Below, piece by piece: positions 1,627 through 56,032 of a stretch of 64,000 nt of DNA. Both the position numbers and the translations under genes were made by a program. Position 1 is the first letter of the stretch, and every line of letters starts with the position of its first letter. Under the pieces are notes generated by a model. That model saw nothing but the letters and a program-made list of their open reading frames with translations, searched no databases and was not told where the DNA came from. The stretch is from Candidatus Enterovibrio altilux (lineage in GTDB: Bacteria > Pseudomonadota > Gammaproteobacteria > Enterobacterales > Vibrionaceae), in the NCBI RefSeq assembly GCF_002381345.1, contig NZ_CP020660.1, forward strand, positions 124,001 through 188,000, written 5' to 3'.

Positions 1627-2148
1627 GGCTTTGTTTCTTAAATTATGGAACTGAATTACTAATCTATGCTTTAAACAGCTAAGTTTGCTTACATACTTAG
1701 GTTTATGGACAAATTTTGCTGTAAAATAAACACTTGGGAACAGTATAATCAAACTTTAATTATTCATAGCTCACTAATATTTTGGATTGACATAGACGTC
1801 ATGTAGCTATGGAATTAAATGCAGCTAGTAATAGAGGGAAACGTCGTTTATTTAGCGACTTAGCCATTTTTAGCGGTCGATGTAAATATGCATGAAATAA
1901 TCGCTGCTGGGCTTAATGTATCAAATGTGACTAACGGTGAAGTGCTATCTAGCTTGCTTAAACAGATCCGCCGCAGAATTGATGAAGTATCATGCCATCG
2001 TGCGTACGACACAAGGCAATATTTCGAGTCAAAAAAAACAGTAGGAGAAACATTGAGTCTAAAGGATTAAAATGCCCAAACTAGCGAAATTTTCATCATA
2101 ATAAAAGCAATACATAAGCCAATGGGGCTAAGTGTACTTAAAACGTAA
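1627..2148 (+). mobile_element. IS903-group remnant, internally deleted, plus strand
   Basis: Starts with the terminal repeat (GGCTTTGTTTCTTAA) and follows the IS consensus. A large central part of the transposase region is missing, and the right terminal repeat is lost where the next, opposite copy begins at 2149. A 60-codon frame at 1888-2070 is a shred of transposase, not a gene. Confidence 0.85.
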
Positions 2149-3191
2149 GGCTTTGTTTTTTAATTCGAGTTTATATGACAAATTTCAACATGATTAACGA
2201 TCAAACAATTGTTTTAGGCATACCTAGTTTGGTCAGCTTATTTAAGGATTTTATCATGGTGTAAATTTTGCTAATTTGAGAATTATGCTCTCTTAAGTGC
2301 AATGTTCCTCTTAGTAGTTTTTTGGCTCGCAACATTGCTGTCTTTGATAGAAAATATTGATGGTAACCATACCTCGTTTTTTCAATGCTAATTGGGATCG
2401 TATAACTTCTGTTAACTGAGCGTTAAATTATGCGGATGACTCCGTTTTCAAAAAATTGCCCTTTTTTGCGGTATGAGTAGAATCTATCGCTTAATACGAA
2501 TAATTTCGTAACATTGTTTTGTGTCATCAACACCATCGGCTGATATTTCATTGATTTTTCGGCGGGTTTGTTTGAGTAAGTTAGGTAACCCTTCACCTTC
2601 AATCACATTTGATGCGCTTAACTCAGCAACAATGATTTCATGTGTATTTATATTTATCGCTAAATACAACTTGCGTCTAACTTACTGTTTTTCATCAGTA
2701 TCATACTTTTTTACTTTCCATTTTCCTTCACCGTAGGTTTTGAACCTCAGAGAATCAATGGTTAAGTGTTATATGCTTCTTTTACTTTTAGTCTTAAACG
2801 TGATGTTAACCGTTTTGGATCGCTTGCTAATGCGCGAATAGTGAGGGCATGATAATGGCAGTTTGTAAGTTTAAAAAATAGAATTAATGAATCCTTACAG
2901 ACCTCTTAATGGCATGGAAAATCTGCATTTAACCATGAGGTCCATCGTAATGATTAGGCCATTAAATACATGAGGTTTTCCATGATTATCCGGCTTGGCT
3001 TGATTTCATAGCGGAATAGCTTCTTCATCATTCCAGAATGTTAGCAAGTCACAATTGATTAAAACTTGATTATACTGTTTTCAGTTGGTTGTTTTGTAGC
3101 GAAGATTATGCATAGACCTGAATATTTAAGTGAGCTTAGTTTTTTAGAGTGTTGATTAAAAATTTAGTTCTCTTATTTAAACAATAAAGTC
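2149..3191 (-). mobile_element. IS903-group element, near full length, degenerate, minus strand
   Basis: About 1.04 kb between degenerate terminal repeats, close to the usual ~1.05 kb of IS903-type elements. The transposase frame is broken by many stops and frameshifts; only pieces of about 60 codons stay open. The left boundary abuts the truncated plus-strand copy. Confidence 0.88.
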
Positions 3192-3300
3192 ATTCAGTAA
3201 TAATTATGCTAATTATGCATCTAAAAAGGAAGGACCTGCATGGTTCTTTTCTTTGTCTCATGGTTATAATTATAAAAATTATTTTTTCTGTAAGGCACAT

Positions 3301-4662
3301 ATGCTGTTCTCATACTTTGAAAATGTTCTTGATGCCTACACGTCGCATTCTCGCCAAATCGTCTTGGCTTTTAGTGGCGGCGTCGACTCTAGAGTACTTC
3401 TGGACCTGTTGTCTATATATCGAGATGCTCATCCACAACACCGATATTTAGTGATTCATATTCACCATGGATTGAGCGACGACGCAGATTATTGGATGAA
3501 GCAATGTGAAGTGTGGGTGCACGACGCTGGATTTTGTTTTCAAGGACTCAGAGTGCAAGTGGCTCAACACGGAAAGAATATTGAAAAATCAGCGAGAGAA
3601 GCAAGGTACCGTGCACTTGCTGATAATGTTGATGTAGGTGAATTAATTATTACAGGGCAACATGCTGATGATCAGGTAGAAACCTTTTTATTAGCATTGA
3701 AAAGAGGCAGTGGACCAGCTGGGTTAGCTGCAATGCCATTACTCCGCCTATTAGGGCATGCAAACCTGCTCAGGCCGCTTTTGTCAGTAACGAGAGCAGA
3801 AATTGAATTATATGCAAATTCGAAAGGACTGCATTGGGTTGAGGATAAAAGTAATTTAAACTGTCGCTTTGATCGTAATTTTATTCGTCAATCTTGGTTA
3901 CCGGCAGCAAAAGAGCGTTGGCCAGGTTTAATTAAAGCAGTCAATAGAACTGCGAAGTTGTGCGCAGAACAAGAAGCATTACTTGAAGAACTACTTGCTG
4001 AGCATAGTAAAAAAGTGAACATTGGACTCGGGATTCTGTCATTGACAGCGTTGGCTACTTACTCGAATAGAATGCAATCAGCATTAGTAAGACGGTGGTT
4101 AAAAAAAGTATCTGGATTATCTGCATCCCAGGCTCAATTACAAGAACTATTTGCGTCAGTAATTACCGCATCATATGATGCTAATCCCAAGTTACAGTTA
4201 GGTGAATGGCAAGTTAGACGTTTTCAACAGCGTCTCTATTTAGTGCCTGTATTTAATGATATATTGATGTGGAAAGAGGTAATGACTATTGGCACAGTAA
4301 TGCGCTTACCTGATGGTGCTGGTGAACTATGTTTAGTGCGTAACACAAAAGCTAAATGTTGCAGTAATATTGAATTAAATGTGTATTATAGTTTATCATT
4401 GAGAGAACCTGCGAAAGGTGAAACTATATCAGTAGGATTTAATCCTAAAGGGTTGACTCTCCACCCCTCAGAGCGTCAGAAAAAGCGAAAGTTGAAAAAA
4501 CTGTATCAGGAGTACGGGGTGCCAAGTTGGTTGAGAAGACGGACACCATTGATTTACTATGGCAATCACTTGGCTGCAGTGGCTGATCTTTTCGTGTGTA
4601 AAGGATTTGAAGGCAAAACCTATGACTTAGTCTGGCACAAAAACAAGTACAGAGTGCGTTGA
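3301..4662 (+). CDS. tilS: tRNA(Ile)-lysidine synthase
   Basis: Modifies C34 of the tRNA-Ile CAU anticodon to lysidine, which is essential for reading AUA. The N-terminal PP-loop ATP-binding motif SGGVDS is at residues 25-30, followed by GQHADDQVETFLLALKRGSG and a C-terminal TilS substrate-binding region. I chose the ATG at 3301 (MLFSYFENVL), which gives 453 residues and matches the family N-terminus. The reading frame is open back to 3253, but the extra 16 codons have no family similarity. In enterobacteria tilS lies several genes before proS; here the order tilS-proS is kept, but the intervening genes are replaced by IS DNA. Confidence 0.93.
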   Translation: MLFSYFENVLDAYTSHSRQIVLAFSGGVDSRVLLDLLSIYRDAHPQHRYLVIHIHHGLSDDADYWMKQCEVWVHDAGFCFQGLRVQVAQHGKNIEKSAREARYRALADNVDVGELIITGQHADDQVETFLLALKRGSGPAGLAAMPLLRLLGHANLLRPLLSVTRAEIELYANSKGLHWVEDKSNLNCRFDRNFIRQSWLPAAKERWPGLIKAVNRTAKLCAEQEALLEELLAEHSKKVNIGLGILSLTALATYSNRMQSALVRRWLKKVSGLSASQAQLQELFASVITASYDANPKLQLGEWQVRRFQQRLYLVPVFNDILMWKEVMTIGTVMRLPDGAGELCLVRNTKAKCCSNIELNVYYSLSLREPAKGETISVGFNPKGLTLHPSERQKKRKLKKLYQEYGVPSWLRRRTPLIYYGNHLAAVADLFVCKGFEGKTYDLVWHKNKYRVR

Positions 4663-46909: not shown

Positions 46910-46924
46910 TGGCATTATATTTGC
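46910..46924 (+). promoter_or_regulatory. Sigma-54 promoter of sypA
   Basis: TGGCATTATATTTGC matches the -24/-12 sigma-54 consensus (TGGCAC, five bases, TTGC) with the correct spacing. It lies 37 bp before the sypA start. V. fischeri syp operons are driven by sigma-54 with SypG. The last 370 bp before sypA are otherwise free of IS sequence. Confidence 0.75.
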
Positions 46925-46961: not shown

Positions 46962-47288
46962 ATGCAAATTGAACACATTTTACAATCAAATAATTCACTT
47001 ATGCTCATAATATATGGCGATATGGATGCACAAGGGTGCAGTGACATGCAACCTGAACTCGATGATGTGGTTGCTACAGACGAGCTAACGGACATAATAC
47101 TCAACCTTGGCTATGTGGATTTTTTAGACAGCTCTGGCATTGGTGCTATCGTTTTTCTCTTTAAACGCTTAAAAACAAAAGGACGCACACTATCATTGAT
47201 ACAAGTACATGGCCAACCAATGGAAATTATCCAGCTACTGCGAATTAATAGTGCAATTTCTGTCGAAATGTCCTCTCCTGTCCGTTAA
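46962..47288 (+). CDS. sypA: STAS-domain biofilm regulator SypA
   Basis: A 108-residue single STAS domain of the anti-sigma-factor-antagonist type. The phospho-acceptor motif is LDSSGIGA, serines 57-58; in V. fischeri the equivalent serine is phosphorylated by SypE to block biofilm formation and dephosphorylated to allow it. GGGGAGATAGAG before the ATG is the ribosome site. First gene of the locus, directly behind the sigma-54 promoter. Order and domain content identify it, although STAS sequences alone are not specific. Confidence 0.88.
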   Translation: MQIEHILQSNNSLMLIIYGDMDAQGCSDMQPELDDVVATDELTDIILNLGYVDFLDSSGIGAIVFLFKRLKTKGRTLSLIQVHGQPMEIIQLLRINSAISVEMSSPVR

Positions 47289-47331
47289 TACTTATAATAA
47301 CAGGTACACTCTCCAAAGTAAGAGGCATGGG

Positions 47332-48132
47332 ATGCAAACTCTACTCAGCTTACTATTACCCATTGTTGTCCTTTTAGGTTGTTCTGCTTTTCCTGAACAT
47401 GGTACAGGTGGCATGGCAGAGCATCACTATTCATCGCTGTCGCCTGTCATGGCAGATGAACCTCTAGGACCAGAGCATGGTTTACGTTTTGAATGGGAAC
47501 TTGCTTCTCGTCATCTCGACGTTCTCATATTAGAAGGTGCTGAACTCTGTTTTCCAGCATCAGTTGTTAATGCCAGACGAATGCTAGAACGCATTGTTCG
47601 TGAGTTACATGGTGGCCTCAAATTTGATGCTGCTAATGATCTAATTGTTCAACGCGTCACCTTAGAGCGTCTTGAAAAACAACTAGATGCTGTAGTAAGT
47701 AGTGCAGCCTGCATTCCTCCGAAGTCGGTTGGTTTTCAATCCACAGCTGAGCTTGCTGAAAAAATTTATAGTTTGCTTAATGCTGATAACCAGTTTGCTT
47801 TTAACTCCTCAGAAATAAATCCTAAATACATGGGTAGGTTGGCAGAAGCAGCAATGATATTACGTGATATCACTCAATTCAACTTGCTCATCACAGGACA
47901 TGCAGATGCTATTGGCAACACAAAAATCAATAAAAAATTATCCTTAGCACGTGCTAATCAAGTTAAGCGTTATCTACAAATTTTTGGCATTGTGTCATCA
48001 CGCCTAACTGTTGCAGCAGTGGGATCAAGTGATCCTCTTTTTGAAGGAAATCAAGCACAGATTAGGCTAACTAATCGCCGTGTTTCCATTGAATTAGTTG
48101 AGGTCAACTTCAACAGACAAAATCAGCTATGA
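47332..48132 (+). CDS. sypB: OmpA-family lipoprotein SypB
   Basis: A 266-residue lipoprotein. The ATG at 47332 follows AGAGG and gives a signal peptide with lipobox LLGC (MQTLLSLLLPIVVLLGCSAF); the frame is open further upstream inside sypA but without similarity. The C-terminal ~120 residues are an OmpA peptidoglycan-binding domain (FAFNSSEINPKYMGRLAEAA, ITGHADAIGN, LTNRRVSIEL). Its stop overlaps the sypC start. Probably an envelope component of the polysaccharide export machinery. Confidence 0.9.
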   Translation: MQTLLSLLLPIVVLLGCSAFPEHGTGGMAEHHYSSLSPVMADEPLGPEHGLRFEWELASRHLDVLILEGAELCFPASVVNARRMLERIVRELHGGLKFDAANDLIVQRVTLERLEKQLDAVVSSAACIPPKSVGFQSTAELAEKIYSLLNADNQFAFNSSEINPKYMGRLAEAAMILRDITQFNLLITGHADAIGNTKINKKLSLARANQVKRYLQIFGIVSSRLTVAAVGSSDPLFEGNQAQIRLTNRRVSIELVEVNFNRQNQL

Positions 48133-50246
48133 GGGTCCTGATGCAGCAGATGATCCTTCTTATTATTACCGTGATGTTTAGCAGCTCATGTAATGCGCTA
48201 GCAAAAGAATACCGCGTGAATATCGGTGACCAGATTGCTGTTCTGCTACCAGGTGAAGCTAACCTAAACAAAGAATTTCAAGTTGATCGGCAGGGTCGGA
48301 TCACTCTTCCTGAAGTGGGTATGATTCAAGTGCTTGGCATGACAGAGACTGCATTATTAGGTGCGGTGAAAGAAATGCTAAGTGTTGTATTCCGAGATTT
48401 ATCACCTCTTAAGGTATTCGTCAGTAAAAGACAGCTACTTATTATTATTCAAGGTTACGTTGCTGAACCAGGAGAGTTCATTTTGAAGCAAAATGCTTCA
48501 ATTCAAATGGCACTCTATACTGCAGGAGGCTTGCGCACAGGTGCACAACTTGACCGTTTTCAGCTTCGTCGCAATGGTGAAATTATTATTTTTGATTATA
48601 AAAAATTTCTTGACACTGGTGATGATAGCCTACTTCCACAGCTTCAATCTCTTGATACCTTATTTATTCCCGCATCGCCAATGATTGGTAACGTTGAACA
48701 AAATTTTAATCCCGCGGCACTTGCCGATTCAGGTGATGCGGCAGAAGACCGAAAAGCTATCAAAGTCTTTGGAGAGGTAATTCGTTCTGGTAGTTTTTCG
48801 GCGAAGGATGAAAACAATCTGGTAGATTTATTAATGCGCGCTGGTGGGGTAACTCGCTACGCCGCTGTTGAACAGATTCGTGTCATTTCAGGCAATGAAC
48901 CGCGTCTATTCAATTTGAAGCAATATCTTGATAGTGGAGATGAATCACTTCTTCCTAACATTATTGAAGGATCAACTATTTTCGTACCAAAGCAAGAAGA
49001 AGAGATTAAAACAGGCTCAAATACGGTATACGTAATGGGTGAAGTCGCTAAACCTGGTGCTTATGAAAGCAAAAAAAGCGCAACTTTTATTGATATTCTT
49101 GCAAATGCTGGCGGGCCCACACGTTTTGCTGAAAGTAGACAAATTCGCGTGATTAAAGCAGATGGTTCAACTGTCCCCTTTGATTTGACGCTTTTTACTG
49201 AAGGCAAATTGGTTGGGGATCCACCCCAAGTCAACCCAGGCGATGCTATTTTCGTTCCAGAAAAGCTTGATATGAATGAAAAATCATGGCTTAAGGTAAC
49301 CCCTGAGCGTGCGGTACGTGTAATTGGTGAAGTACTGCGCCCAAGCCGCGTAGAATGGTCAGATGAAATGTCATTACTTGATCTTCTTGCGCATGTCGGG
49401 GGCCCAACGAGTCGTGCAGACACAAGCAAGATCGAAGTAGTAACACCAACCAGTGTCACAAAATCTCAAACTTATATATTTAACCTTGACAGATTTATTA
49501 AGCAAGGCCTTTCTGACTCTGATCTTCCTCCAGTGAATGCAGGTTCTACCATTCGCGTTCATGATTTGCCTGATGATCCTGTAGACAACAAATCAAAATG
49601 GATTCGCCAAAGTTCAGACAGCTCCATCTATGTATTCGGTCAAGTAGGTGCCCCAGGCCGTTATCGATTTACCGAAGAAATGCACTTTCTCGATATTCTT
49701 TCGGCGGCAGATGGACCAACTGTAAATGCCGACTTACACAATATTCGCGTGACTCATTTAGACGGAAAACATGCGCGCGTTAATAAATTAAATTTAGCTC
49801 TTTTTTTTGAAACCGGTGACACCACTATTTTACCTGAAGTCAAAATAGGCGATACAATTTACATACCTGATAAAAATCGCGATTGGCTGGATAGGCCAAA
49901 AGAAGAAACAATCCGTGTTCTTGGAGCGATAAATCGTCCTGGTCGCTACACATTCGATGATCATATGACCATTTTAGACTTGCTTGCAGAAGCAGGTGGT
50001 CCTAGTAGCAACGCCTACATTGAAAAAATTACAGTTGTAAATATATCATGCTGTAGAGATCAAGCACGCACCTTCAATTTGTCGGAGTTTAGTCGTACAG
50101 CACGATTCCAAGATCTTCCAGTGTTACGGGCTGGCGACACTATTTATATTCCAAGCCACCAGGAAAGTACAGCGTCGAAAATTCGGCAAAGCTTAACGGA
50201 TATTTTCCAGATTGCTGGTATCGCAGCATTGATAGGTATTATATAA
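48129..50246 (+). CDS. sypC: Outer-membrane polysaccharide export protein SypC, multi-SLBB
   Basis: A 705-residue secreted protein with a cleavable N-terminal signal. A Poly_export domain (about 27-105) is followed by about six SLBB repeats, each with a strand like VFGEVIRSG or VLGAINRPGRY, starting near residues 105, 213, 301, 392, 496 and 592, and a short hydrophobic C-terminus. It resembles the Wza-like export family with many SLBB units. ATGA overlap with sypB and TAATG overlap with sypD show translational coupling. Confidence 0.9.
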   Translation: MRVLMQQMILLIITVMFSSSCNALAKEYRVNIGDQIAVLLPGEANLNKEFQVDRQGRITLPEVGMIQVLGMTETALLGAVKEMLSVVFRDLSPLKVFVSKRQLLIIIQGYVAEPGEFILKQNASIQMALYTAGGLRTGAQLDRFQLRRNGEIIIFDYKKFLDTGDDSLLPQLQSLDTLFIPASPMIGNVEQNFNPAALADSGDAAEDRKAIKVFGEVIRSGSFSAKDENNLVDLLMRAGGVTRYAAVEQIRVISGNEPRLFNLKQYLDSGDESLLPNIIEGSTIFVPKQEEEIKTGSNTVYVMGEVAKPGAYESKKSATFIDILANAGGPTRFAESRQIRVIKADGSTVPFDLTLFTEGKLVGDPPQVNPGDAIFVPEKLDMNEKSWLKVTPERAVRVIGEVLRPSRVEWSDEMSLLDLLAHVGGPTSRADTSKIEVVTPTSVTKSQTYIFNLDRFIKQGLSDSDLPPVNAGSTIRVHDLPDDPVDNKSKWIRQSSDSSIYVFGQVGAPGRYRFTEEMHFLDILSAADGPTVNADLHNIRVTHLDGKHARVNKLNLALFFETGDTTILPEVKIGDTIYIPDKNRDWLDRPKEETIRVLGAINRPGRYTFDDHMTILDLLAEAGGPSSNAYIEKITVVNISCCRDQARTFNLSEFSRTARFQDLPVLRAGDTIYIPSHQESTASKIRQSLTDIFQIAGIAALIGII

Positions 50247-50953
50247 TGCATATTTCTCCACTAAACTTAGAAGTCGAGCGAATTTACTCTCAAGTTGTTC
50301 GTAATGACTATAAAACATTGGCCGTTGTGGCCACTGAATCAGGTGAGGGAGTGACTTCTCTTGCCACAGCCATTGCGCAACGGTCATTACTAGCTGGAAA
50401 ATCAACGTTGATTGTTGATTTAAACCTGTACCATCCTAACTTAGAGAGTCAAGGAATAACTCCGGTAGTAAAATCCCAGCGGCTGCTTCCTAGCCCTGAA
50501 CTTGTTGGTGTCATCGGAGAACATACTTATTGTACTGGCATCATTGCACCGTCAAAACGTGGGATCATCATGGAACTGCGCCGTCCTGATTCATTGGAAG
50601 GTTATTTGAAAGAATGGCATAAAGAATATGATTTGGTCATATTTGATACATCACCGATATCTCGCATGAACGCCAACAACATACCTCCAGAGCGTGTTGC
50701 CGCCGCCGCAGATGGCACTATTTTTATAGTGATGGCAGGACAAACTACAGAAGCCATGGTATCTGAATCAGTGAAAAGACTTAACGATGCAGGCGCACAT
50801 TTGCTCGGCTGTGTCCTAAATGACAAAAAAAACCATTCATTAAAAATTGCTTTATTGCTTGAAATAGATAAACTTCAAAAATATTTACCCAAAATAGCAA
50901 GGATGCTACGCCATAAAATTCTTAGTAGCCATTTGCTCTCTTTGGAGATTTAG
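50246..50953 (+). CDS. sypD: CpsD/CapB-type tyrosine-kinase-like ATPase SypD
   Basis: A 235-residue cytoplasmic P-loop protein related to bacterial tyrosine kinases that control polysaccharide chain length and export. The P-loop reads ATESGEGVTSLA, with valine where the lysine of GKT/S is usual. Walker A' is LIVDLNLYHP and Walker B is YDLVIFDTSPI. The C-terminus has almost no tyrosines, unlike the tyrosine cluster of Wzc/CapB. No Wzz-type membrane domain is fused. Some relatives share the non-lysine P-loop, so this may be a family trait rather than damage. Confidence 0.85.
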   Translation: MHISPLNLEVERIYSQVVRNDYKTLAVVATESGEGVTSLATAIAQRSLLAGKSTLIVDLNLYHPNLESQGITPVVKSQRLLPSPELVGVIGEHTYCTGIIAPSKRGIIMELRRPDSLEGYLKEWHKEYDLVIFDTSPISRMNANNIPPERVAAAADGTIFIVMAGQTTEAMVSESVKRLNDAGAHLLGCVLNDKKNHSLKIALLLEIDKLQKYLPKIARMLRHKILSSHLLSLEI

Positions 50954-50955
50954 TC

Positions 50956-52485
50956 ATGGTGTCAATTGTTAGTCATGAATGTCGTCCTGCCACACTTAAA
51001 TCCATCAGTCTCGCAAGAAAGAACTTAAATAATGTGTTTAAAAAACACGCCGTACCTGACCACATAACGAATAAAATACTGTTGTGTTTTGCAGAAGCTG
51101 CCACAAACCTTGTGAATCATTCAAACCTTCAGCCTACATTCATTCATATCGATTTAGAATGCAATAATGATAGTTGGAAATTACACTTAAGTGACGACGG
51201 ACAAAGCTGGAATCCTAAACCACCAGATCGTGTTCAATTGCACGATATATTTAAAGATAAAGAAGGAGGACGAGGTCTAGCATTGATTCATAGTTTATCT
51301 GATGATATGGAATACAAGATTCATGATACAATTGGTAAAAATACACTAACTTTGAAATGGCACCGTCAAAAATTTTTAACAAAACCTAGCATATTGATAG
51401 TAGATGATGATATCTGCCAGCGTCGATTATATAGCGCGTATCTGTGTGAAGACTATCATGTTATCGACGCTGAAAGTGGTGAGGCTGCTTTATCACTGCT
51501 GCTCCAACAAGATGTAGATTTAGTAATATCAGACATTAGAATGCCGAGAATGGACGGCTTAAGCCTTAAAAAAGCACTCCATAAAGAAAGTAACACACTA
51601 TTAACTCCTTTCATATTTCTAACCTATGCAGACAATCCAGAAATCCTAGAAAGTGCGATGGGATTAGGTATTGACGATTATTTAATTAAACCAGTAAGTA
51701 AACCCGCACTAATTCAAAGCGTAACAAGAGTATTGAATCGCTCAGCTCAGATTTACCGACAGCTCACTGATCGTGTGAACAAACGCATCACTGATTCTTT
51801 AACTCCATCCTTACCCAAAAAAGCATATGGTTGGGAAATGACGGTTATTAGTCGAAACACTGGCATTGGGGGGGGTGACCTCGTTCTTCATCGTGGGAAT
51901 AGTCGATGCATGATGCTTAATGTGGTCGATATCATGGGTCATGATGTCACTGCAAAATTTTTTTCATATGCGTTTGGCGGATATTTACGTGGCCTAATGT
52001 ATCATATTGACCATGAAACCAACCCGTGTACAACGCTACTGAGTAGACTCTCAGACAGCGCATTGGAAGATGGTTTATTATCACAAGTTATCCTAACGTG
52101 TTGCTCTGCCGTACTGTCGGATAACGGAAAAATTGAGGTTGCTACCGCTGGCCATCCTGCTCCGTTTAAAATTTCGCCAACGTGCACTCAACTAATAGAT
52201 GTTGGTGGTATTTTACCAGGTGTTATTTATGGAGCTAACTACGAAAGCATCACTATTTATCTAGCCAACAATGAGCGTCTAGCTATTTACACTGACGGAT
52301 TATTTGAAGCAGCTGAAAATGATCAGGCTCGGAAAATTTTGAGTAATAGCATTATGACTACACTGCAAAACACGCTAATACTACCGATTGATGAAGCTGC
52401 ACAACGCGTAATGCAAACATTTGACCGTAAAGGAGAAAGGTATCGTGATGATGCAACTCTTGTATTGCTGCAACGTGCAAATTGA
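50956..52485 (+). CDS. sypE: Dual kinase/phosphatase response regulator SypE
   Basis: 509 residues with the diagnostic SypE order. An N-terminal RsbW-like ATPase/serine kinase (about 1-137; N-box FAEAATNLVNHS, DDGQSW) precedes a central receiver domain (about 144-265; Asp193 in VISDIRMPRMDG, Lys in LIKPVSK), and a C-terminal PP2C/SpoIIE phosphatase (about 305-509; VVDIMGHDVTAK, ATAGHPAPF, YTDGLFEA, RDDATLVLL). In V. fischeri it sets SypA phosphorylation. All catalytic landmarks appear intact. It starts 2 bp after sypD. An IS remnant begins directly after its stop. Confidence 0.92.
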   Translation: MVSIVSHECRPATLKSISLARKNLNNVFKKHAVPDHITNKILLCFAEAATNLVNHSNLQPTFIHIDLECNNDSWKLHLSDDGQSWNPKPPDRVQLHDIFKDKEGGRGLALIHSLSDDMEYKIHDTIGKNTLTLKWHRQKFLTKPSILIVDDDICQRRLYSAYLCEDYHVIDAESGEAALSLLLQQDVDLVISDIRMPRMDGLSLKKALHKESNTLLTPFIFLTYADNPEILESAMGLGIDDYLIKPVSKPALIQSVTRVLNRSAQIYRQLTDRVNKRITDSLTPSLPKKAYGWEMTVISRNTGIGGGDLVLHRGNSRCMMLNVVDIMGHDVTAKFFSYAFGGYLRGLMYHIDHETNPCTTLLSRLSDSALEDGLLSQVILTCCSAVLSDNGKIEVATAGHPAPFKISPTCTQLIDVGGILPGVIYGANYESITIYLANNERLAIYTDGLFEAAENDQARKILSNSIMTTLQNTLILPIDEAAQRVMQTFDRKGERYRDDATLVLLQRAN

Positions 52486-53419
52486 CACCCTACAGTAGGT
52501 TTTGCTAATCTGAATTGTGATTCCTTAGGCTCAATGTACCTTCACGTAGTTTTTTGACTCAACACATTGCCGTCTCTGTTAGAGAAGATTTACGGCAACC
52601 GTATTTCATTTTTTATGCTGCTTTGAACTGTATAATTTTTAATAGTTGATCACGAAATTACGCGGATGATCTTGTTTTTAAAAAGTTGTTCCTTTTTTGC
52701 TGAATTAGTGGCCTCTCGTTTAATCCGAACGGTTTCGTAACGTTGCATGTGTCATAAGGATTATTACTTGATACTTTATTGATTTTTCAGCGGATTTATT
52801 TGAGGAAGGTGGGTAGCACTTCACCATTAGTCACATTTGCTGAATTAAATTCAGCAGTAATGATTGAGTACGTATTTATATTTACTGCTAAATGTAATGT
52901 GCACCAAACTTTCTGTTTCCCATCAGTGCCATGATTTTTTACTTTCTATGTGTCTTTATCGTAGACTTTGATTTTTCTAAAATCCATGGCTAAGTGCGGG
53001 ATGGTTTCTTTATTCTTTCGCCTTAACCGTGACATTATCCGTTTTGGCTCGTTTTTAATGCATAACTATTGAGGACATAAAACGGCAATTGAGCAAATTT
53101 AAAAAACAGAATTAATGAATCCTTGTAGACTTCTCAACAGCATTGGAAATATTCATTTGTTCATAAAAACCATCGCAATGGCTAAGTTACGAAACAAATG
53201 AGGTCTTTCATGCTTACCCTGCTTAGTTTGATTCCATAGCTAAATGACATTTTCATCAGCCCACAATGTTAGTGAGCCACGATTGATTAAGGTTTGATTA
53301 TACTCCTTCCAGTTAGTCGTTTGGTAGATAAGCTTGTTCATAGACTTAAATATTTAAGTGAGCCTAGTTATTGAAAGCGTAGATTAATCATTTAGTTCCT
53401 TGGGTTAGGAAACAAAGCC
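52486..53419 (-). mobile_element. IS903-group remnant replacing the start of sypF
   Basis: A minus-strand copy that ends properly at 53419 (TTAGGAAACAAAGCC) but lacks its first ~120 bp (the right-end repeat) on the sypE side, where IS sequence begins right after the sypE stop. A deletion running from inside the IS to the sypE stop would explain loss of both the IS end and the 5' part of sypF. Confidence 0.85.
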
Positions 53420-54003
53420 GCATGTAAGCCGCAGACCTGAATTTTATACACGTGACCTAGTATAGACAATTGACATTTTTTTATTATTTGATGAGTTTTC
53501 GATGGTGACAAATGAATATAACCTACATCATGAAGACAGTGAATTAAACTTTTAGTACAAAATTCACAAGAAGTTGGATCAATTTTTTATTCACTTTAAA
53601 GCTAATATTAGTTGAACAGAAAGATTCTACCTTAAAAAATTTACATAATAATGCTAGAAACTCTACTTTTAAGTCAGATAAGCATATGCTAATTTTATTA
53701 GCATATGACAATACAGCAAACTAAATTATATTGCATACTATGCTTGAATTTTTAAATTTGGCTGCATACATAATTAGTAATAGAAAGAAAAAGTTGCTGT
53801 CAAAAGTAGAGTACCTTATGACATTTTGTTTCTGAATATCTCCATACCAGGAATGGGTCAAATTAAAATCATATAGCGCATCCAAAAAATGGAGCAACCA
53901 GCCAAAAAATCAATATTATAGTGCTCACCGTGCATTCCATGTGAATGGATAGAGAACATCTTCTTAAACAAGAAATGGATGATTCACACCAAGCTATTAC
54001 TAA
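53420..54003 (+). pseudogene. sypF: sypF remnant: decayed region and fossil receiver domain
   Basis: From about 53790 the frame reads KEKVAVKSRVPYDILFLNISIPGM, a receiver-domain core with Asn in place of the phospho-acceptor Asp. It is followed after stops and frameshifts by IVLTVHSM and MDREHLLKQEMDD (the usual LTAHA ... LxxGMDD receiver end). This joins the HPt ORF at 54004. The histidine-kinase part expected before it is gone or unrecognisable (53420-53780 is AT-rich with no readable motif). Confidence 0.82.
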
Positions 54004-54456
54004 TTGTTTAAGTTGTTGTCAGCACTGATTGAACAAACCAGCACCACTACCTCATTAAATGGGCCAGACACTACCAATGACATGAAAACACCCACCAAAC
54101 CAGTATGCATTATTGATGAAGAGACGCTGACACAACTAGTGTTCGACACTTCAGCAGATGCAGCCCTCAGTCTCGTTGCATTCTATGTTAAAGACGCTAA
54201 GGTGCGAACAATAAAACTTCTTCAAGCAGCAAAAGAAAATGATTATTATACGCTTGAATTTGAGGCTCATACACTTGGAAGCAGTGCAGCAGCGCATGGC
54301 AACAGTGCATTAAGTCAATTATGCAGGCGCATTGAAAGATTTTGTTTAAATGAACATTTTGACCAAGCGATTGATAATACAGCGCAGCTAGAAAATATAG
54401 CAAAACAATCATTCTTAGCCTTGGAAATGCGCTTACAACAGGGGTTTAGAACATAG
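54004..54456 (+). CDS. sypF: Free HPt phosphotransfer domain, remnant of hybrid kinase SypF
   Basis: 150 codons from a TTG at 54004, or more likely 124 from the ATG at 54082 (MKTPTKPVCIIDEE). A histidine phosphotransfer domain is intact, with phospho-histidine at residue 89 of the long form (FEAHTLGSSAAAHGN) and the helical region LCRRIERFC. A stop precedes the TTG, cutting it off from the receiver fossil. In V. fischeri the HPt domain of SypF alone can relay phosphate from another kinase (RscS) to SypG/SypE, so this stand-alone domain may still work. No clear ribosome site is visible for either start. Confidence 0.82.
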   Translation: MFKLLSALIEQTSTTTSLNGPDTTNDMKTPTKPVCIIDEETLTQLVFDTSADAALSLVAFYVKDAKVRTIKLLQAAKENDYYTLEFEAHTLGSSAAAHGNSALSQLCRRIERFCLNEHFDQAIDNTAQLENIAKQSFLALEMRLQQGFRT

Positions 54457-54601
54457 GTATTATCTTGTTTTTAATGTATCACGCTGTAGAATCAAATTTT
54501 GTCATACACTTACATGCATATGAATTTTATCCATCTTGCTTACCTTCACCACTATAAATTTTGCATGGCGTTGGTATATATTTCAGAGGAAGCATAGCCA
54601 C

Positions 54602-56032
54602 ATGAAGTCAAAATACCAAGTTTTACTTATTGAAGACTCTAAACCATTGTCGAATCTTTATAGCAAATATCTATCGAACGAACCCATTGACCTAGTGTGC
54701 TTGAACACGGGACGAACTGCACTTAATTACTTACAACAGAACACCCCTCACCTAATCATGTTGGATCTCAAGCTACCAGATATGTCTGGAAAAGACATAT
54801 TGCGTTGGATCAAAAAACAAGCCTTACCTTGTGCCATCATCATTGTAACCAGTCATGGCTCCGTCAATACTGCTGTTAAGTTGATGCAGCAAGGTGCTGA
54901 TGATTTTTTAGAAAAACCAGTGAGTGCTGAACGACTCAAAACTACATTGACTAATCAACTTGAACATATACGCTTACAACACCTTGTTGATGATATTACA
55001 ACTAATTTTAATCGAAATACGTATCACGGTTTCATTGGCTCAAGTCTTCCAATGCAAAATGTTTACCGTATCATTGATGCAGCAGCACCCAGTAGAGCAA
55101 CAGTGTTTATTACTGGAGAAAGTGGTACAGGAAAAGAGGTGTGTGCAGAAGCAATTCATAATCAAAGCCCTCGCGCTCAACAAGCTTTCATACCATTGAA
55201 TTGTGGTGCCATTCCGCATGACTTAATGGAAAGCGAAATATTTGGTCACGTAAAAGGAGCATTCACTGGAGCGAGCAGCGAACGTAAAGGAGCAGCTGCA
55301 CAAGCAAATGGTGGCACTCTATTTCTTGATGAAATCTGTGAAATGGATTTAGATCTTCAAAAAAAATTATTGCGTTTCATTCAAACAGGACGTTATCAAA
55401 AAGTCGGCGGTAGTAGAGAAGAAAGCGTTGACATTCGTTTTCTTTGTGCAACGAACAAAGATCCCCTTCATGAAGTTGCTGCTGGTAGATTTCGTGAAGA
55501 TTTGTATTATCGCCTTCATGTTGTACTACTTGCGTTACCACCACTCCGAGAACGCGAGAATGATATTCTTACCATTGCTACCAGTTTCCTTAAAACCTAT
55601 GCACAGGAAGAAGGAAAAATCTTTTTACAATTTTCACCCGCAGCCGAAGTGGTACTTCGTCATTATTCGTGGCCAGGCAACGTTCGTCAATTGCAAAATG
55701 TAATACGCAATATTGTGGTGCTACACGATGGTGAGGAAGTAAGCGTAACACAATTGCCACCACCTCTTAACGAAACCTTGAGTGATAAAGAAATTCAATC
55801 TCTCACTGTACCACTTCATCCTACACCAATTGCTAGTCCAATTGAGTGCGTTGGCATTGCAACATCAGGGGAAGAATTAAGTATTCGATCATTAGAGGAC
55901 GTTGAACGAGAAGCTATTCAGCATGCTATCGAATTTTGTAATGGAAATGTTTTGAAAGCAGCAGTATTGCTGAAAGTTAGCCCTTCTACCTTATACCGTA
56001 AGAAACAAGCTTGGGAAACAGGTGAAGCGTAA
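54602..56032 (+). CDS. sypG: Sigma-54-dependent response regulator SypG
   Basis: A 476-residue NtrC-type activator. Receiver domain with Asp55 in LIMLDLKLPDMSGKD and Lys in FLEKPVSAERL; AAA+ domain with GESGTGKE, the sigma-54 contact GAFTGA, and Walker B GGTLFLDEI; C-terminal Fis-type helix-turn-helix (NVLKAAVLLKVSPSTLYRK). The ATG at 54602 follows AGAGGAAG; the frame is open 22 codons further upstream without similarity. It activates the sigma-54 syp promoters. It lies about 145 bp after the HPt ORF. No sypH or later gene follows; IS DNA begins within 160 bp. Confidence 0.93.
   Translation: MKSKYQVLLIEDSKPLSNLYSKYLSNEPIDLVCLNTGRTALNYLQQNTPHLIMLDLKLPDMSGKDILRWIKKQALPCAIIIVTSHGSVNTAVKLMQQGADDFLEKPVSAERLKTTLTNQLEHIRLQHLVDDITTNFNRNTYHGFIGSSLPMQNVYRIIDAAAPSRATVFITGESGTGKEVCAEAIHNQSPRAQQAFIPLNCGAIPHDLMESEIFGHVKGAFTGASSERKGAAAQANGGTLFLDEICEMDLDLQKKLLRFIQTGRYQKVGGSREESVDIRFLCATNKDPLHEVAAGRFREDLYYRLHVVLLALPPLRERENDILTIATSFLKTYAQEEGKIFLQFSPAAEVVLRHYSWPGNVRQLQNVIRNIVVLHDGEEVSVTQLPPPLNETLSDKEIQSLTVPLHPTPIASPIECVGIATSGEELSIRSLEDVEREAIQHAIEFCNGNVLKAAVLLKVSPSTLYRKKQAWETGEA

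Follow-up and report, generated by a model that had tools for sequence, protein, structure and literature searches.

The stretch of DNA analyzed here, called the window below, comprises 64,000 nt of Candidatus Enterovibrio altilux (NZ_CP020660.1, positions 124,001-188,000 of the forward strand). In size and number of contigs, the genome that carries it (2,143,356 bases, four contigs) matches Ca. Enterovibrio luxaltus CC26, whose host is the anglerfish Cryptopsaras couesii (excerpt of PMC6020299). The host is a deep-sea anglerfish and the symbiont is light-producing. The window contains a syp locus (Table 1) in which the frames of sypA to sypE (46962-52485) and of sypG (54602-56032) are open; the true start of sypB is probably near 47332 (tblastn match 47332-48120, 79%). 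Between sypE and sypG stand a decayed insertion sequence (IS), a fossil of the kinase end and receiver of SypF, and a small open frame for a histidine phosphotransfer (HPt) domain, which directly precedes the intact sypG.

Table 1. Features of the syp locus in the window, and a hybrid kinase encoded elsewhere in the same genome.
Feature	Position	Strand	Basis or remark
sypA promoter, sigma-54 type -24/-12 site	46910..46924	+	TGGCATTATATTTGC, one mismatch to the typed consensus
sypA (STAS)	46962..47288	+	PF01740; syntenic
sypB (OmpA)	47209..48132	+	PF00691
sypC (polysaccharide export)	48129..50246	+	Pfam and comparison with relatives
sypD	50246..50953	+	77% to E. norvegicus, full length
sypE (HATPase_c_2, REC, SpoIIE), intact	50956..52485	+	
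Decayed IS remnant	52486..53420	- (strand of the consensus transposase frame)	83 matches in the same genome, itself counted
sypF fossil (last part of the HATPase domain, receiver)	53420..54046	+	Frameshift-aware alignment
Stand-alone SypF HPt ORF	54082..54456	+	124 aa from ATG 54082; open from TTG 54004; PF01627
sypG (REC, sigma-54 activator, HTH_8), intact	54602..56032	+	GAGGAAG before the start
609-aa HisKA-HATPase-REC kinase	G000:C1:101433-103259		Frame open

A frameshift-aware alignment places the fossil on residues ~644-883 of E. norvegicus SypF, across seven stops and up to seven frameshifts, the last two of which are soft and lie in a poorly conserved linker. The alignment scores 310; the highest score among 15 base shuffles was 40. 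At the phospho-site, the FMDISMP of E. norvegicus has become FLNISIP, with Asn in place of Asp. The initial annotation, which had described the receiver core as a legible fossil with Asn at the phospho-site and broken by stops, is borne out by this alignment. No match was found for the SypF residues that precede this portion. The sypF of this locus has neither a HisKA and HATPase_c pair (what remains of the HATPase is decayed) nor a receiver with its phospho-Asp (stops, frameshifts and the Asp-to-Asn change).

The IS remnant, which separates sypE from the fossil, has 83 matching places in its own genome, itself counted, and our guess, after an excerpt of PMC6020299, is that it belongs to the IS5 family. 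It was compared with the consensus of 21 copies, namely itself and 20 others from the top of the match list. Over 52500-53415, substitutions amount to 18.7% and there are 9 indels across 914 bases, more decay than in any other of the 21 copies compared. These copies lie 11-19% from the consensus, so that the decay of further broken genes in this genome can be gauged against them as an approximate neutral clock.

The HPt ORF (54004..54456, forward strand) runs for 150 codons from TTG, or 124 from ATG 54082, without a stop. Hpt is the only Pfam domain in the 150-codon frame (PF01627, E 1.1e-7; 32.4 bits, cut-off 24.6), with neither kinase nor receiver in the same ORF. The phospho-accepting H63, counted from ATG 54082, lies in EAHTLGSS and is invariant across 21 sequences, and the initial description of this domain (HTLGSSAAAHG) as fully open with its histidine holds. 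Of the columns that do not vary among 20 relatives, the HPt keeps all 28, including the phospho-His, and it keeps 8 of the 10 that are nearly invariant. Where the HPt begins, the alignment introduces a -2/-1 pair (54101/54112), which nets three bases and is read as one lost codon because the frame is open through it. The ORF is predicted to fold as an HPt: the AlphaFold2 model has a mean pLDDT of 91.6 and consists of helices only but for single residues, in keeping with the helical bundle of a free-standing HPt protein, and its best PDB matches are HPt proteins, headed by HptB of Pseudomonas aeruginosa (7c1i), likewise a free HPt (TM-score 0.82) although at only 19% identity.

Signals for expression are less clear. 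No Shine-Dalgarno sequence was found before ATG 54082 or TTG 54004. An 8-codon frame (54059-54085) ends in a stop that shares bases with ATG 54082, an overlap that may couple translation of the HPt or be due to chance. The IS remnant stands between the sypA promoter and the HPt. Since promoter-like sites in 52300-54700 show no excess (8 vs 10.2 in shuffles) and terminator-like sites are slightly more frequent than expected (3 vs 1.0), transcription through the remnant is not assured.

A close parallel is SypF of Vibrio (Aliivibrio) fischeri, whose orthologous HPt occupies the same place between sypE and sypG. In V. fischeri strain emors, the protein is still a 766-aa hybrid (L127), whereas sensor, kinase and receiver have been lost from the one considered here. 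In V. fischeri, the HPt alone complements a sypF deletion (excerpt of PMC12369376), which backs the earlier claim that it suffices there. Closer in size are the HPt-only SypF proteins of V. tubiashii T33, V. sagamiensis and an uncultured Aliivibrio: 118-127 aa, located before sypG, and without a SypF-kinase match in the fetched stretch. However, these loci gave no match to a fossil of the lost domains and lie on separate branches of the SypG tree, and three of the four HPt-only starts checked have a Shine-Dalgarno-like stretch (L129, L139 and L141, not L024). LuxU is another free HPt of Vibrionaceae (profile match of our HPt to 1y6d, 3.7e-5), which in V. fischeri can contribute to SypG output and partly stands in (PMC12369376, in excerpt); unlike the SypF HPt, it is encoded at another locus. 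LuxU was rejected as an alternative HPt in this genome, where no further PF01627 match that would fit it was found at E values up to 10.

This genome is not alone in having a reduced SypF. Within the genus, another reduced genome (G012; 2.6 Mb, about 40 contigs), very probably that of Ca. E. escacola, has also lost the sensor and most of the kinase while keeping the HPt in an open frame next to an intact sypG, about 160 bases further on. It is one step less reduced, with the receiver also kept and constrained: the REC-HPt frame retains both phospho-Asp and phospho-His. Near full-length matches to sypA-E lie on another of its contigs (sypG, REC-HPt sypF and the sypA-E matches: L041, 13290-15714, and L154, 4008-9636).

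Across the family, a SypF-type HPt was found in 172 of 329 genomes (E 1e-15 or better). Among 56 loci examined, chosen from the matching genomes mostly by rank and not at random, sypG adjoins the HPt in 51. The five loci without a sypG match are all hybrids: L140 (contig end), L025 and L026 (none within 1.5 kb), L027 and L029, all but L140 being distant. In L027 and L029 (about 1871-3319), the HPt of a SypF-like hybrid is followed by a sypE-like gene rather than sypG, perhaps another wiring of the locus. In all 87 loci compared, which include seven second fetches of the same genome, the SypF HPt nearest sypG lies 37-326 bp upstream on the same strand.

On a SypG tree of 80 loci, 45 have the hybrid form, 32 are HPt-only and three are of middle size. 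The presence of the kinase changes at least seven times, at least four of these changes being forced by well-supported branches, on what is a quick tree that flags long branches, the window's among them. Left out were frameshifted loci (L116, L123, L158), G014 with its broken sypG matches (L056), the loci without a sypG match (L140, L025-L027, L029), duplicates (L156, L157, L159, L023, L195, L198, L202, L209, L221, L165, L229) and the second SypF of L161. Because the three most distant rows have the hybrid form, losses of the kinase are the likelier direction. In Vibrio, an HPt-only SypF is commonly encoded in front of sypG, and Aliivibrio has this arrangement too. This division agrees with the split in a paper on the V. 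parahaemolyticus scv locus, in an excerpt of which a sypF ortholog is given as absent in 38 Vibrio species and present in 24 (PMC8941931).

Several other variants were seen. Aliivibrio sifiae and Aliivibrio sp. 1S175 (L135, 5638-6351; L131, 5626-6354) encode at the SypF position a protein of 237-242 aa with a hydrophobic N-terminus, a C-terminal HPt and, by Pfam, no kinase or receiver, which is perhaps a membrane-anchored HPt. G150 carries both a hybrid SypF of ~800 aa and an HPt-only copy, about 4.6 kb apart (L161, 2015-4420 and 8555-9016), and the same pair of sizes occurs in G189, G265 and G318. In E. nigricans (L057, 3027-6028), sypF has a frameshift near residue 790, at the receiver, which is either real or a sequencing error; the other syp genes beside the split sypF are full-length.

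What might feed a free HPt was sought among the kinases of the genome. CheA aside, Pfam identifies five of the ten HATPase_c matches as sensor kinases: ArcB, a 1350-aa PAS-HisKA-HATPase-REC-REC-HPt kinase, two kinases without a receiver, and a 609-aa HisKA-HATPase-REC kinase without an HPt. From their sequences, we take the remaining five to be CheA, GyrB, ParE, HtpG and MutL. Only CheA, ArcB and the REC-REC-HPt kinase have an HPt of their own, and the 609-aa protein is the only HPt-less hybrid kinase among those found. In the 1350-aa kinase (L059, 8634-12686), the first of the two receivers has MAWEIP at the expected place of the phospho-Asp; the other is intact. The genome has five HPt matches, three of which lie in CheA, ArcB and the 1350-aa kinase; apart from the SypF HPt, no usable free one was found. 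A match in L004 (1435-1767) was rejected as a second free HPt, the frame being short and its only start codon lying after the domain; presumably this frame is CheA-like. Pairing by elimination fails in G012 because of a further free HPt-sized frame of 118 aa, and E. norvegicus has a total of 20 HPt matches.

Gene order in other species, in turn, appears to tie the 609-aa kinase to syp. In 6 of 13 free-living syp loci, its gene precedes sypA by 293-774 bp and has the same orientation, with no open frame of more than 86 codons in between. Among the matches listed, it is found near full length in all seven genomes of the genus tested (68% identity in G012, 75% in E. norvegicus DSM 15893) and in none of nine others; counting every match to it, there are 4 here, 7 in G012 and 23-25 in five free-living genus members. 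Five Aliivibrio genomes have no near full-length match among those listed, and in three of these five the best listed matches are the SypF kinase regions. The kinase is kept in both symbionts, here about 68 kb from the syp locus.

Elimination and gene order together make a relay from the 609-aa kinase through the HPt to SypG the most likely one by inference, and we give this kinase an even chance of being the donor. The initial annotation had suggested that the HPt is possibly fed by another kinase, and this stands insofar as a hybrid-kinase candidate was found; the candidate is not evidently RscS or HahK. An RscS- or HahK-like donor was provisionally rejected on the domain architecture of the kinases found and on the absence of HnoX, the partner of HahK, from both symbionts and from E. 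norvegicus. It is possible, if rather doubtful, that the HPt works and that its donor is another kinase, such as ArcB or the 1350-aa kinase, or that several kinases converge on it. ArcB and the 1350-aa kinase are open and have receivers, and the best fold match of the HPt is HptB, on which several kinases converge in P. aeruginosa. Moreover, RscS of V. fischeri bypasses its own HPt and uses that of SypF (excerpt of PMC5019070). However, these two kinases carry their own HPt, unlike the 609-aa kinase, and it is the latter that lies beside sypA in the 6 of 13 free-living loci.

A further alternative is that the HPt ORF has no function and is the tail of a pseudogene that has not yet been broken. 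Pseudogenes and decayed IS copies do abound in the genome, sypF is otherwise dead, and the ORF lacks a Shine-Dalgarno sequence. Against this, the relative conservation of the two domains is the reverse of that in intact relatives. Identity to E. norvegicus DSM 15893 in the HPt is 59% here, 59% in G012 and 54% in E. norvegicus FF-33, and in the receiver it is 44%, 72% and 74%, respectively. The receiver is thus the better conserved domain in relatives (74% vs 54% between the two E. norvegicus strains) and the worse conserved one here (44% vs 59%), a reversal that is conservative because the fossil alignment was optimized for similarity. In a branch codon model with saturated synonymous sites (10.9 on the window branch), rough omega values (that of the fossil ran to the bound) and a tested branch that includes time before the truncation of SypF, omega = 1 was rejected on the window branch for the HPt (p 0.004) and for sypD as a control (p 0.0005), but not for the receiver fossil (p 0.32). 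On the G012 branch, it was rejected for both receiver (2.5e-5) and HPt (3.9e-4).

The decay of the IS copies gives a neutral expectation. If a quarter of indels are assumed to be in frame, the probability that a neutral HPt would still be open is 0.002-0.003 at the decay of the local IS copy, about 0.02 at that of the median copy and 0.07-0.09 at that of the least decayed copy, the IS clock being an upper bound, as copies may have differed before insertion. The last of these values leaves some room for a pseudogene tail. Yet the HPt is on average 50.7% similar to nine free-living relatives, and none of 300 simulated neutral HPts at each of three rates reached the observed similarity. Neutral survival is unlikely: the similarity of the HPt to relatives is about that of intact HPts, whereas the receiver, usually the better conserved part, has collapsed. 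The 28 conserved columns and the many free-living genomes with an HPt-only form also argue against a functionless tail, which we consider improbable. As judged from these sequence comparisons, the HPt is probably a maintained, working relay protein. The differential decay of receiver and HPt, the IS-based neutral expectation and the recurrence of kinase-less SypF beside sypG all support the proposal in the initial annotation of a natural reduction to the relay domain.

The following model is, as a whole, probably the best explanation of the locus. IS insertion, deletion and decay probably cut SypF down to a free HPt protein, which would still be selected as the phosphate gate to SypG and probably also to SypE, a possible second target. 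The input kinase, for which the 609-aa protein is the best candidate, would autophosphorylate and pass the phosphate to its own receiver, from there to His63 of the SypF HPt and on to the receiver of SypG, which would then open the sigma-54 promoter of sypA. We infer the translation of the HPt, the phosphotransfer and the identity of the feeding kinase. Sites resembling -24/-12 promoters are as numerous as expected by chance in the whole window; the position of the sypA site and its TGG/TT/G letters are invariant over 14 aligned sypA upstream regions. Upstream of sypA, a dyad keeps its core and right arm, but its left arm has drifted (TTTTTTA here, TTTCTCA or TTTCCCA in most relatives). One block of downstream polysaccharide genes is kept, with six genes at about C1:918.9-927.1 kb; the window and the stretches L058, L152 and L153 gave no match to the other block, which comprises an epimerase and five further genes. 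A mainly reverse flow through the HPt, with phosphate drained from SypG or SypE to a kinase working as a phosphatase and syp genes kept low as a result, would recall the reversal reported for LuxU and the lowering of SypG output by BinK in V. fischeri (excerpts of PMC10162802 and PMC5019070), but nothing in the sequence shows direction, and the retention of sypA-E, sypG, the -24/-12 site and one of two polysaccharide blocks fits use better than lasting silence; this reading is unlikely.

These results bear on published work on anglerfish symbionts. Baker et al. (2019) treated SypF of E. luxaltus as present and stated that neither sypF nor sypG can be found in E. escacola (excerpt of PMC6773444). 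The sypF found here lacks the kinase, and G012 has an intact sypG and a REC-HPt sypF, contrary to that statement if G012 is E. escacola; in that case, the proposed link of sypF and sypG to host range needs another look. A truncation of SypF is not described in the excerpts of the anglerfish literature that name sypF. More generally, it may be hypothesized, with confidence evenly divided, that the pair of SypF HPt and SypG is the fixed core of syp control in Vibrionaceae, around which kinases are swapped. The built-in kinase would have been lost repeatedly, the anglerfish symbionts would represent two intermediate stages (one with REC-HPt, the other with an HPt beside the fossil of a receiver), and a syp-linked HPt-less kinase would be taking over the input. 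The retention of the HPt matches the laboratory work in V. fischeri in which the HPt alone complements, and the analysis names a kinase that can be tested. The locus would show part of a symbiosis phosphorelay being kept by selection while the rest of it decays.
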